A stretch of 45,701 nucleotides of DNA from Coriobacteriia bacterium (GTDB taxonomy: Bacteria > Actinomycetota > Coriobacteriia > Coriobacteriales > UBA8131), in NCBI GenBank assembly GCA_009784425.1, contig WRBR01000005.1:1-45701 (forward strand). Reading direction: 5' to 3'. The notes beneath the pieces were generated by a model. The model made no database searches. It was not told where the DNA came from and was given only the letters and a program-made list of their open reading frames with translations. The position numbers and the translations under genes are program-made. Shown here one piece after another: positions 7,437 through 30,547 of this stretch; within the stretch, counting starts at the first letter, position 1; the number at the start of each line of letters is the position of its first letter.

Positions 7437-7910
7437 GTGGTCAGTGACGGGTCAAAGAAACCCAATAAAAACAACAAGCCGCCCGGCGGCAAGGTGAGCT
7501 TTTCCACCGTTGCCTTGGCCGTAGGCATTTTGTTGGTGCTCTTTGGTATCTGGCAGCTGGCCGAGCGCTTCCTCGGAACCTGGTTCCATGAAATCTGGCA
7601 GATCATCTCCTTGGTGATAAGCATTGTGTGGCCGCTTTTAATCATCGCGGGAGGCGTGTGCCTGATGCTCCTTGCGCGCAAGGGCAACTTGAACCTGCCG
7701 GTAGACCGAAAGCTCTACCGCTCTCTTCGCAATAAGAAGATCGGGGGGATTTGTGGGGGAATTGGGGAGTATCTGGGCGCAGACCCCGCCGTGGTGCGCG
7801 TGGTGACCATCGTACTCGCCATTCTTTGCTGGTATGTGATCTTGCCGCTGTATCTGCTTTTCTGGATTATCATCGAGCCAGATAACAAAAACTACACCAA
7901 CTACGTTTAA
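7437..7910 (+). CDS. PspC domain-containing membrane protein (C-terminal PspC domain)
   Basis: RKLYRSLRNKKIGGICGGIGEYLGADPAVVRVVTIVLAILCWYVILPLYLLFWIIIEPD; follows the previous PspC gene closely on the same strand. Confidence 0.85.
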   Translation: MVSDGSKKPNKNNKPPGGKVSFSTVALAVGILLVLFGIWQLAERFLGTWFHEIWQIISLVISIVWPLLIIAGGVCLMLLARKGNLNLPVDRKLYRSLRNKKIGGICGGIGEYLGADPAVVRVVTIVLAILCWYVILPLYLLFWIIIEPDNKNYTNYV

Positions 7911-8057
7911 GTGACTCACTCAGCAAGCACAGCTATTTATTTCTGCCTTGGGGCCCCGGCTCGCTCCAGTATGCCTTTGCCAGCTTGCGGCAGAGCCGAG
8001 CTGCTCACCCCCAAGTCAGAAGCCAAACAGCTGGGCTTGCTGAGTGAGTCACTTAAA
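7906..8057. mobile_element. MITE-like nested palindromic element with 29-bp terminal inverted repeats
   Basis: TTTAAGTGACTCACTCAGCAAGCACAGCT (7906-7934) versus AGCTGGGCTTGCTGAGTGAGTCACTTAAA (8029-8057), one mismatch. Inner pair TTCTGCCTTGGGG (7941-7953) / CCCCAAGTCAGAA (8009-8021), one mismatch. No ORF inside. Confidence 0.65.
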
Positions 8058-17098: not shown

Positions 17099-17110
17099 GC
17101 GTGAGGTACT

Positions 17111-17231
17111 GGTACAGAGGGACGGGGTTGGTGTGGTACAGAGGGACGGGGTTGGTGTACCACTTTTTGAGGCAAAAAGTGGTACACCAACCCCGTCCCT
17201 CTGTACCACACCAACCCCGTCCCTCTGTACC
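17111..17231. repeat. 121-bp near-perfect palindrome of two duplicated 24-mers per arm
   Basis: Left arm GGTACAGAGGGACGGGGTTGGTGT x2 (17111-17134, 17135-17158) + ACCACTTTTT, 5-nt loop GAGGC, right arm exact reverse complement AAAAAGTGGT + ACACCAACCCCGTCCCTCTGTACC x2 to 17231. Degenerate GGGGAC units continue to ~17275. Confidence 0.95.
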
Positions 17232-17293
17232 ATACCAGCCCCGTCCCCCTGCCCAAAACGCCCCGTCCCCTTTGTCCATGCTATACTAAGCCA

Positions 17294-20381: not shown

Positions 20382-21197
20382 TTGACCGCTCCTATCCATA
20401 CCATAAGATTCCTCGGCACTGCCGCTTTTTGCGGCGTGCCGAGTTTCTATTGCGGTTGCAAGGCCTGCGAGGAGGCGCTGCAAAACCCCGCTGCACGGCG
20501 AACCAGTGCGGCGCTGCTCATCAGAGGCCCACAAAACACGCTAATAGACGCAGGCCCGGACCTGCGTATGCAGCTCTCTCTTGCCGGAGCAAAAGACGTA
20601 AACCAGGTGCTCTTGACCCATCAGCACTTTGATCACATAGGCGGCATTCCCCATTTGGAGTTTTACTCTCGCATAAAAACCACTCAGCCAGTTAAGATTT
20701 ATGCGGGAGGCCTCACTCTGGCAACCATTGCCCGGCAGTTTCCTTTCATGCAAGATGTGCTGGAGCCGCATGAACTTTTTGCCTGGCAGCCGGTGAAATT
20801 TGACGGGGTGCGCTATACTCCTTTGCCCGCCACGCACGGCACAGAGACCTTTGGCTTTCTCATAGAAAAGACCGGCGAGAGCGCACTGGGCAACAAGCGC
20901 ATTGCCTACTTCCCAGACACGGGGCCACTTTCTACTGAAACGGCTGATGCGCTCAAAGGAGTGGACGTACTCATCATCGATTCAAGCTTCCACGGCAAGA
21001 ACCGCAAGCCCGAGGGACATCTCAACATTGACGAAGCTATCGAGCAGGCTGAGCTTCTGGGAGCCAAAAAGACTTTTCTCACCCACTTCACCATGCACTA
21101 CGACGAGCCAATAACTGCCTATGAACTACAAGAGCTGCTAGCTCCCTACCAGGGAAAAATCCTTGCAGCAAACGACGGCCTAGAAATCCCACTGTGA
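20382..21197 (+). CDS. MBL-fold metallohydrolase (PhnP-like)
   Basis: IRFLGTAAFCGVPSFYCGCKACEEA, DAGPDLRMQL, LLTHQHFDHIGGIPHLE, TFLTHFTMHYDE; TTG start. Confidence 0.85.
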   Translation: MTAPIHTIRFLGTAAFCGVPSFYCGCKACEEALQNPAARRTSAALLIRGPQNTLIDAGPDLRMQLSLAGAKDVNQVLLTHQHFDHIGGIPHLEFYSRIKTTQPVKIYAGGLTLATIARQFPFMQDVLEPHELFAWQPVKFDGVRYTPLPATHGTETFGFLIEKTGESALGNKRIAYFPDTGPLSTETADALKGVDVLIIDSSFHGKNRKPEGHLNIDEAIEQAELLGAKKTFLTHFTMHYDEPITAYELQELLAPYQGKILAANDGLEIPL

Positions 21198-21357
21198 GTC
21201 ACTGGGGACGGGGCTGGAACAGGGGGACGGGGTTAGTGTTCCAATTTGACCAAGGTCAAATTGGAACACTAACCCCGTCCCCCTGTTCCAGCCCCATCTC
21301 TCTGTCACCCAAACGCCACGTCCCCTTGTCACTTTCCCCGTCCCCAGTGAGTCACAG
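21192..21357. repeat. Nested GGGGAC-family palindrome: 22-bp outer inverted repeats around a 38-bp perfect stem
   Basis: Outer CTGTGAGTCACTGGGGACGGGG (21192-21213) / CCCCGTCCCCAGTGAGTCACAG (21336-21357). Inner stem 21214-21251 / 21254-21291 is a perfect 38-bp match with a 2-nt AA gap. Confidence 0.95.
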
Positions 21358-21444
21358 TTTGCCGTGACGTGGTACAATCATTACAGAGAGTAAAAATTCT
21401 TTAGGATTCATTAGTTTTAATAAGAAACTGGAAATGGAGGAACT

Positions 21445-21939
21445 ATGGCCAAGGGGAGACTGACTGCACTCTTAATAGGAGGTGTCATCGGTGCTGGAGT
21501 TGCACTGCTGCTTGCTCCACGCAGTGGCAAGGAAACAAGGGCATTTCTCGCCGACAAAGCTGAGGAAATGTGGGGAGAGGGAGCTGACTTCTATTCCCAG
21601 AATTTTGAGAGAGTCAAGGCAGAAGCTGCCAACGTGCAAAGAACAGCAGTCCAGGCCAACGAAGAGCTGAGAGCTAAGATTGAGAATGCTCGTAGCGCTA
21701 TCGCTGATCAAATAGCAAAGAATGCTCAAAGTGCACGCGAGGCTATCAACGCTCAGATACCTCTTGGCGCTGACAAAATCACTCAGGAGGCAGACGTTGT
21801 GAAGGGTCAGATTGACGAGGCCGCAGATCAGATTAAGAGTGCCGCCGCAAATCTGGCTTCTCAGGATGCTGCCGCAGTTGAAGAAGCTGCTGACGCGGTA
21901 AAGCAACCAATGGTCAATCCTGACGCGCAAAATAACTAA
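21445..21939 (+). CDS. YtxH domain-containing protein
   Basis: LTALLIGGVIGAGVALLLAPRSGKETRAFLADKAEEM is a YtxH-type N-terminus followed by an Ala-rich amphipathic helix. Confidence 0.8.
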   Translation: MAKGRLTALLIGGVIGAGVALLLAPRSGKETRAFLADKAEEMWGEGADFYSQNFERVKAEAANVQRTAVQANEELRAKIENARSAIADQIAKNAQSAREAINAQIPLGADKITQEADVVKGQIDEAADQIKSAAANLASQDAAAVEEAADAVKQPMVNPDAQNN

Positions 21940-30157: not shown

Positions 30158-30289
30158 CGTGTATTTGCTGCGCAAATCCACGTGGTCCTCGCTCAAGAGC
30201 TCGGACGTTTTTGCTACAAACGAGCCACTGGCTCGTTTGCTTAACGCAAAAACCCCTCTCGGGTTCGAATCCCAGCGAGTTCAACGAAT

Positions 30290-30330
30290 AATACCTTCAG
30301 AGACTTCTTTTAGAAGTCTCTGAAGGTATT
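30290..30330. terminator. Perfect 19-bp hairpin directly downstream of tRNA-Ser (minus strand)
   Basis: AATACCTTCAGAGACTTCT-TTT-AGAAGTCTCTGAAGGTATT. Confidence 0.6.
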
Positions 30331-30332
30331 AG

Positions 30333-30423
30333 TGGCGGAGAGCCGGGGATTCGAACCCCGGAACGGGTTTTGCCCGTTACTCGCTTAGCAGGCGAGCACC
30401 TTCGGCCTCTCGGTCAGCTCTCC
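30333..30423 (-). tRNA. tRNA-Ser (anticodon GCT), CCA encoded
   Basis: Reverse complement GGAGAGCTGACCGAGAGGCCGAAGGTGCTCGCCTGCTAAGCGAGTAACGGGCAAAACCCGTTCCGGGGTTCGAATCCCCGGCTCTCCGCCA. 7-bp acceptor stem, anticodon loop CTGCTAA, long variable arm, TTCGAAT T-loop. Confidence 0.97.
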
Positions 30424-30480: not shown

Positions 30481-30547
30481 TGAGACAGGGGGACAGTTCT
30501 TCTGTCTCGCCGGGTCAGAAGACAGAAGAACTGCCCCCCCTGCCTCA
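30481..30547. repeat. GGGGAC-family imperfect palindrome
   Basis: TGAGACAGGGGGACAGTTCTTCTGTCT (30481-30507) / AGACAGAAGAACTGCCCCCCCTGCCTCA (30520-30547). Confidence 0.85.

Follow-up and report, generated by a model that had tools for sequence, protein, structure and literature searches.

The nested palindrome at positions 21191-21358 of a Coriobacteriia contig raises the question of whether the small stem inside each of its arms matters and, if it does, whether it is read as RNA or as DNA. The initial annotation, made from the letters of the window (the whole stretch of 45,701 nt that was analysed), had taken each arm to be itself a hairpin, had read covariation with a second palindrome as a sign that this substructure matters, and had leaned towards a structure formed in RNA. 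The window makes up contig 5 in the assembly of a gut bacterium (G000; 2.0 Mb, 86% complete).

Architecture of the palindromes in the window

The palindrome is intergenic and lies between the gene of a metallo-beta-lactamase-fold protein (20382-21197, plus strand) and that of a YtxH-like protein (21445-21939, plus strand). Its left outer arm (21191-21213, plus), a TGACTCA-type unit (ACTGTGAGTCACTGGGGACGGGG), supplies the TGA stop of the upstream gene and is complemented at 22 of 23 positions by the right outer arm (21336-21358, minus); the outer inverted repeats of 22 bp described initially were correct in substance. The inner palindrome (21210-21295) consists of arms at 21210-21251 (plus) and 21254-21295 (minus) that pair without a mismatch over 42 bp and leave AA as a 2-nt loop, exactly as had been stated for the inner stem counted with its GGGG/CCCC, and an inverted-repeat search extends the arms by adjoining bases to 45 nt at 98%. 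Each inner arm holds a GGAACA/TGTTCC sub-stem enclosing a GGGGACGGGG loop. The sub-stem pointed out in the annotation corresponds to the hairpin unit TGGAACA-GG-GGGACGGGG-TTAG-TGTTCCA at 21215-21243 (plus), whose mirror image lies in the right inner arm at 21262-21290 (minus).

The second palindrome (17110-17232), also intergenic, separates the gene of an adenylosuccinate-lyase-family protein from an NlpC/P60 gene. It has perfect 60-bp arms, the left one (17110-17169, plus) made of two tandem GGTACA-type units and the right one (17173-17232, minus) perfectly complementary to it. Both 27-mers that had been aligned between the two palindromes are present, including the exchange of A/T for T/A at the third position and the base paired with it. 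A divided result was obtained for the right flank, which had been described as shared with 17250-17275. The stretch at 21307-21331 (minus) is a real, degenerate copy of TGACAAGGGGACGGGGCGTTTGTCA, the terminal repeat of a RAYT element (see below), as it matches at 21 of 25 positions and ten shuffles of the window gave at most 18; the RAYT-end-like unit at 17252-17278 (minus), degenerate and with one extra base, matches ungapped at 17 of 25, which is chance level.

Other inverted repeats were noted in the window. At 7909-8055, the inverted repeat AAGTGACTCACTCAGCAAGC...GCTTGCTGAGTGAGTCACTT encloses 86 nt, and it looks like a related longer element that has lost its core, because its end sequence also occurs after a GGGGACGGGG core at L003 12286-12490. 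The hairpin GGGGGACAGTTCTTCTGTCT / AGACAGAAGAACTGCCCCCC at 30486-30541, near tRNA-Ser(GCT), is a GGGGACAG (TIRYT-consensus) palindrome of a different family. Finally, the 3′ part of tRNA-Ser recurs as an incomplete inverted copy (30246-30373) beside the intact gene, from which it is separated by a perfect 20-bp hairpin (30289-30331); this structure is possibly a tRNA remnant or an integration scar. A known RNA family was ruled out, as Rfam at gathering thresholds gives no family match in the window.

The palindrome family and the pairing within its units

Pattern searches of the 2.0-Mb genome for the core GGGGACGGGGTT gave 165 matches on the plus strand and 147 on the minus strand (312 together), against 2 + 1 = 3 for the reversed control. 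Whereas these whole-genome counts are pattern searches, the statistics on units come from ~240 units in 459 kb of the genome, in stretches partly chosen for holding copies. The 459 kb contain 88 clusters of copies, most of them multi-unit with plus units left of minus units, and the spacers of 54 inner pairs are mostly 40 or 42 nt long. Arms of one element share 97% identity, compared to 81% between elements, and of 110 differences from the most frequent arm sequence, 88 are common to both arms of the element. When genes were called by codon usage, 46 of the 65 clusters that could be classified fell between genes, while intergenic DNA makes up ~16% of positions; the 19 clusters that stay 'in' genes include some in probably spurious ORFs or at gene ends. 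An earlier ORF-based count, which placed 25 of 74 clusters inside genes, is superseded by this call. The copies are mostly extragenic inverted pairs, and form a REPIN-like population with the high copy number expected of REPIN/REP sequences. The listed copies, however, have no unpaired GTAG (or CGTC) next to their stems at the foot of the hairpin, and GACG/CGTC is part of the loop.

Contigs C2, C3, C7, C9, C12, C16, C19, C22-C24, C35 and C48 end inside palindromic repeats, which leaves the assembly fragmented, and palindromic contig ends such as those of C12 and C9 could be fold-back assembly artefacts. A GGACAGAAGGGGACGGTTCATGTGTCC palindrome is located within the spacer of a GGGGACGGGG element (L024, 387-504), and GGGACGGTTCAT represents a further repeat family of this genome. 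At L040 (G000:C42, ~1815-1940), the exact symmetry centre of an older, larger palindrome (AAGTGACTCACTGAAAACGGGGGAACTGGCTCTCTCGG and its inverse) is occupied by a GGAACA palindrome, which suggests insertion at a hairpin tip.

The layout of the unit is stem, GGGGACGGGG(TT/CT/CG/AA), stem. The main stems in this genome are GGAACA, GGTACA and GGGACA, which differ from each other by paired changes at one position, and TGACAA and TGACTCA types are also found. Among 88 distinct units, position 3 and its partner form A-T in 39, T-A in 21 and G-C in 3, and are unpaired in 25. The A/T exchange gives p = 1.5e-9 in a Fisher test, which treats the copies as independent although they are not. Most of the unpaired units look like hybrids that combine a left arm of the GGAACA type with a right TGTACC arm. 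Of 193 distinct units, 120 have no stem of 6 bp or longer; such a stem was observed in 68 of 90 innermost units compared to 13 of 122 outer tandem units, a count that adds further short stretches beyond the 459 kb. In view of this difference, we propose that most stemless units may be read as truncated outer units, in which the next unit has taken the place of the 3′ half. Single-stranded DNA folding prediction gave the expected hairpins for GGAACA, GGTACA and TGACAA units and no clean hairpin for a TGACTCA-type variant. The outer unit of this type in G000 has a C-C mismatch in its stem.

The RAYT gene, its ends and signs of movement

The assembly contains one intact Y1 transposase gene (G000:C48:14443-15216), a relative of the RAYTs. 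Its product matches PF01797 with 49.3 bits (cut-off 23) and carries both the HUH motif (H60-V-H62) and the Y...NP signature of a Y1 transposase domain, with Y120, N124 and P125 invariant in 26 relatives; the HVH and Y...NP motifs are invariant or nearly so across relatives. A phmmer search with this protein gave no match among PDB sequences, and only the comparison of folds was informative. The predicted fold (mean pLDDT 85.9) found its best PDB match in 4er8, TnpA-REP bound to a REP hairpin (E 1.7e-7, TM 0.74 by target), with IS200/IS605 structures ranking behind, so that a TnpA-REP fold is indicated. With the NCBIfam equivalog for REP-associated tyrosine transposases, NF047646, the protein scored 46.2 bits, below the cut-off of 80, and it is to be called related only. 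At its C-terminus, helices are predicted at 219-231, 236-243 and 247-255 together with a conserved SIRQIERLTG motif, and no Pfam HTH or DnaA_C match was obtained at 1e-3.

The ends of the RAYT element, TGACAA-GGGGACGGGGCGT-TTGTCA, are the same kind of unit as that in the palindromes. The repeat TGACAAGGGGACGGGGCGTTTGTCA stands upstream of the gene, and downstream its inverse begins before it is interrupted by the contig end; in the congener G004, whose RAYT is 87% identical, both ends are complete. The same end repeat also forms stand-alone palindromes in G000, and it is the main palindrome found in G004, with 58 exact copies compared to 23 in G000. On its contig, the RAYT lies downstream of an ORF that starts like an RHS core end (L001, 33-1280), for which no Pfam match was obtained.

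RAYT relatives were sampled from the family, the order and the class (Coriobacteriia). At most of the relative loci with enough flank, inverted repeats face the RAYT gene from both sides. Within 350 bp of these RAYT genes there are 102 GGGAC[GA] motifs, of which 49 form part of a hairpin loop closed by a stem of 6 bp or more; the count covers selected loci and is not corrected for phylogeny. Swapping the right-hand flanks between units left ~8 with such a stem, and unrelated GGGAC[GA] motifs in G000 have one in 12 of 106 cases. The RAYT-end stems of the relatives include TGACAA, GTGCCAAAA, GCGTGTC, ATGATACGAA, GCACGAAA, TGATCCAAAAG and TGTATCAAA; 30 representative units have 22 different innermost 6-mers, and all four pair types occur at stem positions 2-6. 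The sub-stem covaries across lineages, being replaced but paired while the loop GGGAC[G/A] is constant, and this is the strongest support for the original idea. Two RAYT relatives, at L083 and L084 (G375 and G329), have tandem inverted repeats with another core, CACCGGAGG and TTACCCCGGAGG, in place of GGGAC; these cores are possibly a second class of loop motif.

Taken together, the claim that the arms are hairpins whose covariation shows that the sub-stem matters holds for the most part: the three paired types at position 3, the stems kept in innermost units and the swapped but paired stems of the relatives speak for it, and the 25 unpaired units of 88 speak against it. Unpaired substitutions in more copies, which had been named as what would overturn the claim, are found in this minority of distinct units, and the covariation is strong but not universal. 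The lean towards RNA structure needs correction, as the evidence favours the end of a single-strand-DNA transposable element. Judged from these comparisons of sequence, the sub-stem is most likely recognised as single-stranded DNA by the transposase rather than as RNA.

Signs of movement come from four derivatives of the RAYT element on two contigs (C31 and C49). All of them join element position 49 to 524 and hence lack the same 474 nt, while their flanking sequences differ. They keep the element ends around an internal deletion at several sites, as MITEs of the RAYT element would, except that one right end is truncated. Movement of the element is suggested because one deletion junction recurs with different flanks, as for a non-autonomous element. 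Local recombination may instead have been the source of the derivatives, because three of the four lie within 7 kb on one contig. On L029 (G000:C31, 1-8000) and on C49 the derivatives are interspersed with small ORFs, and C31 and C49 may adjoin, as 113 bp at the start of C31 match the end of C49. As for the palindrome at 21191-21358, it is absent from the orthologous intergenic sites of the congeners G001, G002, G003 and G004, and would therefore have been gained in the G000 lineage or lost in all others. Exact insertion ends and target duplications were sought through these empty sites, where the junctions could not be placed as the congener DNA is only ~70-75% identical. We infer that the palindromes were propagated by transposition.

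Explanations and known systems

The palindrome is probably a nested, REPIN-like non-autonomous mobile element, whose unit is a hairpin of the kind found at the ends of TIRYT / subclass 2.1 RAYTs and would be handled by a RAYT. In such a scheme, the unit would be a 6-9-bp stem around a loop containing GGGGACGGGG, hairpins of this kind would form both ends of the RAYT element, and two inverted units with a short spacer would make up one palindrome that is propagated as a block. Whenever the DNA becomes single-stranded, for example on the lagging-strand template, every unit could fold into a small hairpin; the RAYT would then bind it, with the stem recognised by its structure and the GGGAC loop by its sequence, and would cut and rejoin the strand. 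New copies would favour intergenic DNA and sites inside or beside older copies, which would produce nested arrays with the whole stem only in the innermost unit. The single-strand chemistry, the cleavage by a RAYT and the choice of the RAYT that drives the dominant GGAACA/GGTACA families are what we infer within this scheme.

The explanation is not matched by every finding. Besides the units without a stem and the C-C mismatch in the outer unit, the intact RAYT of G000 has TGACAA ends, whereas most palindromes of this genome are GGAACA/GGTACA, and a RAYT with GGAACA/GGTACA ends was not found in the 86% complete assembly. A variant of the explanation, in which these palindromes were moved by a second RAYT lineage that is missing from the assembly or was recently lost, and not in trans by the TGACAA-ended RAYT, has close to an even chance, if slightly under it. 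In the congener G004, a second RAYT (39% identical) stands between a GGGACAGGGGGACGGGG unit ~150 bp away and a degenerate palindrome of the GGGACA type, and it is by paired changes at one position that GGGACA, GGAACA and GGTACA are separated. Nevertheless, only 3 copies of the exact pattern GGGACAGGGGGACGGGG occur in G004, and, with one of the two flanking units pointing away from the gene, the ends do not make up a clean terminal inverted repeat. With the second RAYT of G004 as query, only the TGACAA-ended RAYT and fragments were found in G000, an assembly without ~14% of the genome.

We hold it unlikely that the palindromes are primarily host RNA elements, such as bidirectional terminators or mRNA-stabilising or RNase III hairpins, whose spreading was incidental. 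The copies in the window do lie just 3′ of stop codons and 5′ of the next gene, and REPs of other bacteria act in these ways (PMC3733652, PMC8266576). By gene orientation, the intergenic clusters fall into 33 co-directional, 10 convergent and only 3 divergent ones, a deficit of divergent pairs that is not significant (p = 0.32). A terminator leaves the constant GGGAC loop unexplained, and the identical kind of hairpin flanks transposase genes of many genera, pointing inward from both sides. Moreover, the congeners without a palindrome at the same gene pair indicate that it is not needed there.

That the sub-stem is a by-product of palindrome growth through template switching or fold-back synthesis, recognised by nothing, is in our judgement very unlikely. 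Fold-back synthesis could yield palindromes that extend past the element into the flanks, as those at L010, L014 and L040 do, and would agree with the near identity of the arms within each element. The sub-stem, however, lies within one arm, so that it does not arise from pairing between the arms; innermost units have mostly kept it and most outer ones have lost it, and it recurs with unrelated stems at single RAYT ends that are not palindromic pairs. We find it scarcely credible that an unrelated DDE-type insertion sequence gave rise to the repeats as its MITEs, or that they are an artefact of assembly, in spite of their MITE-like perfect inverted repeats and the many contigs that end inside palindromes, given hundreds of copies with distinct flanks on many contigs, related repeats in four congeners, RAYT ends that match the unit, and no target-site duplication evident by eye at the window copy.

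Returning to the mobile, hairpin-ended element, we put forward a broader idea as tentative, and hold it to be plausible rather than probable. Group-1 (subclass 2.1) RAYTs may recognise single-stranded hairpins by the loop GGGAC, with a stem that is free in sequence and drifts by paired changes as a changeable address; sister species would then be filled by different stem families (TGACAA in G004, GGAACA/GGTACA in G000), and these RAYT elements would be truly mobile and not domesticated. RAYT genes are regarded in the field as immobile, domesticated transposases. Loop-motif hairpins, >300 cores and deletion derivatives would give subclass 2.1 a defined DNA substrate, and how RAYTs choose and spread repeats would become directly testable. 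Coriobacteriia were not found named in the main RAYT/REP surveys searched.

Among known systems, the ends of IS200/IS605 elements (IS608, ISDra2) are alike in that a Y1/HUH transposase acts on subterminal single-stranded hairpins, and the fold matches. There, a guide sequence is located 5′ of the hairpin, whereas here inverted copies of one hairpin point inward at both ends; guide/target pairing was not identified at the RAYT element ends. The CGTC-tagged REPs (PMC3733652) are likewise small palindromes in inverted dimers with CGTC on one strand. Their CGTC, however, stays unpaired at the foot as a tag, the loop has 4-5 nt and no transposase is associated, while the motif here lies in a larger loop and is RAYT-linked.

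The REPINs or REPs with their RAYT (REPtron; Pseudomonas, E. coli, Stenotrophomonas) share more: short hairpins outside genes that number in the hundreds and mostly come as inverted pairs, a related RAYT gene with repeats of the same kind on its flanks, and non-autonomous copies that far outnumber the transposase gene. Unlike them, the hairpins of G000 have no GTAG at the foot, the tag by which classical REPs are defined, and carry a conserved GGGAC[G/A] in the loop, and the stems are sequence-free across lineages. RAYT deletion derivatives are found here at several places, whereas Corneloup et al. reported no evidence of tnpA-REP mobility (PMC8266576).

RAYT-like genes with terminal inverted repeats (TIRYT, TIRtron) were described by Di Nocera et al. 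in 2013, with a GGGGWSAS motif in repeats that include some self-complementary and some moderately abundant families (PMC3733652). Quentin et al. in 2018 assigned most TIRYTs to TnpA-REP subclass 2.1, which equals RAYT group 1, and their automatic and manual searches found no REP-like structures adjacent to subclass 2.1 genes (PMC6006769). The present system also has a RAYT-like gene between inverted repeats with a G-rich motif (GGGGWSAS there, GGGAC[G/A] here), a protein that extends beyond the Y1 domain into a C-terminus predicted to be helical and possibly HTH-like, and repeats that can form families, dimers and clusters. The flank motif GGGGAC[A/G] of the RAYTs fits GGGGWSAS in its A form and departs at one position in its G form, which is that of G000. 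The published subclass 2.1 surveys knew the flanking inverted repeats and did not find REP-like hairpins; the repeats described here are loop-motif hairpins with covarying stems at many such genes, with >300 cores in one genome. The best fit for the G000 system is TIRYT / subclass 2.1, with a putative C-terminal HTH that is unrecognised by Pfam and a score below the NCBIfam equivalog cut-off. In its working, by analogy, it appears to resemble the REPIN/REPtron, except that its conserved motif is located in the loop and not at the foot.
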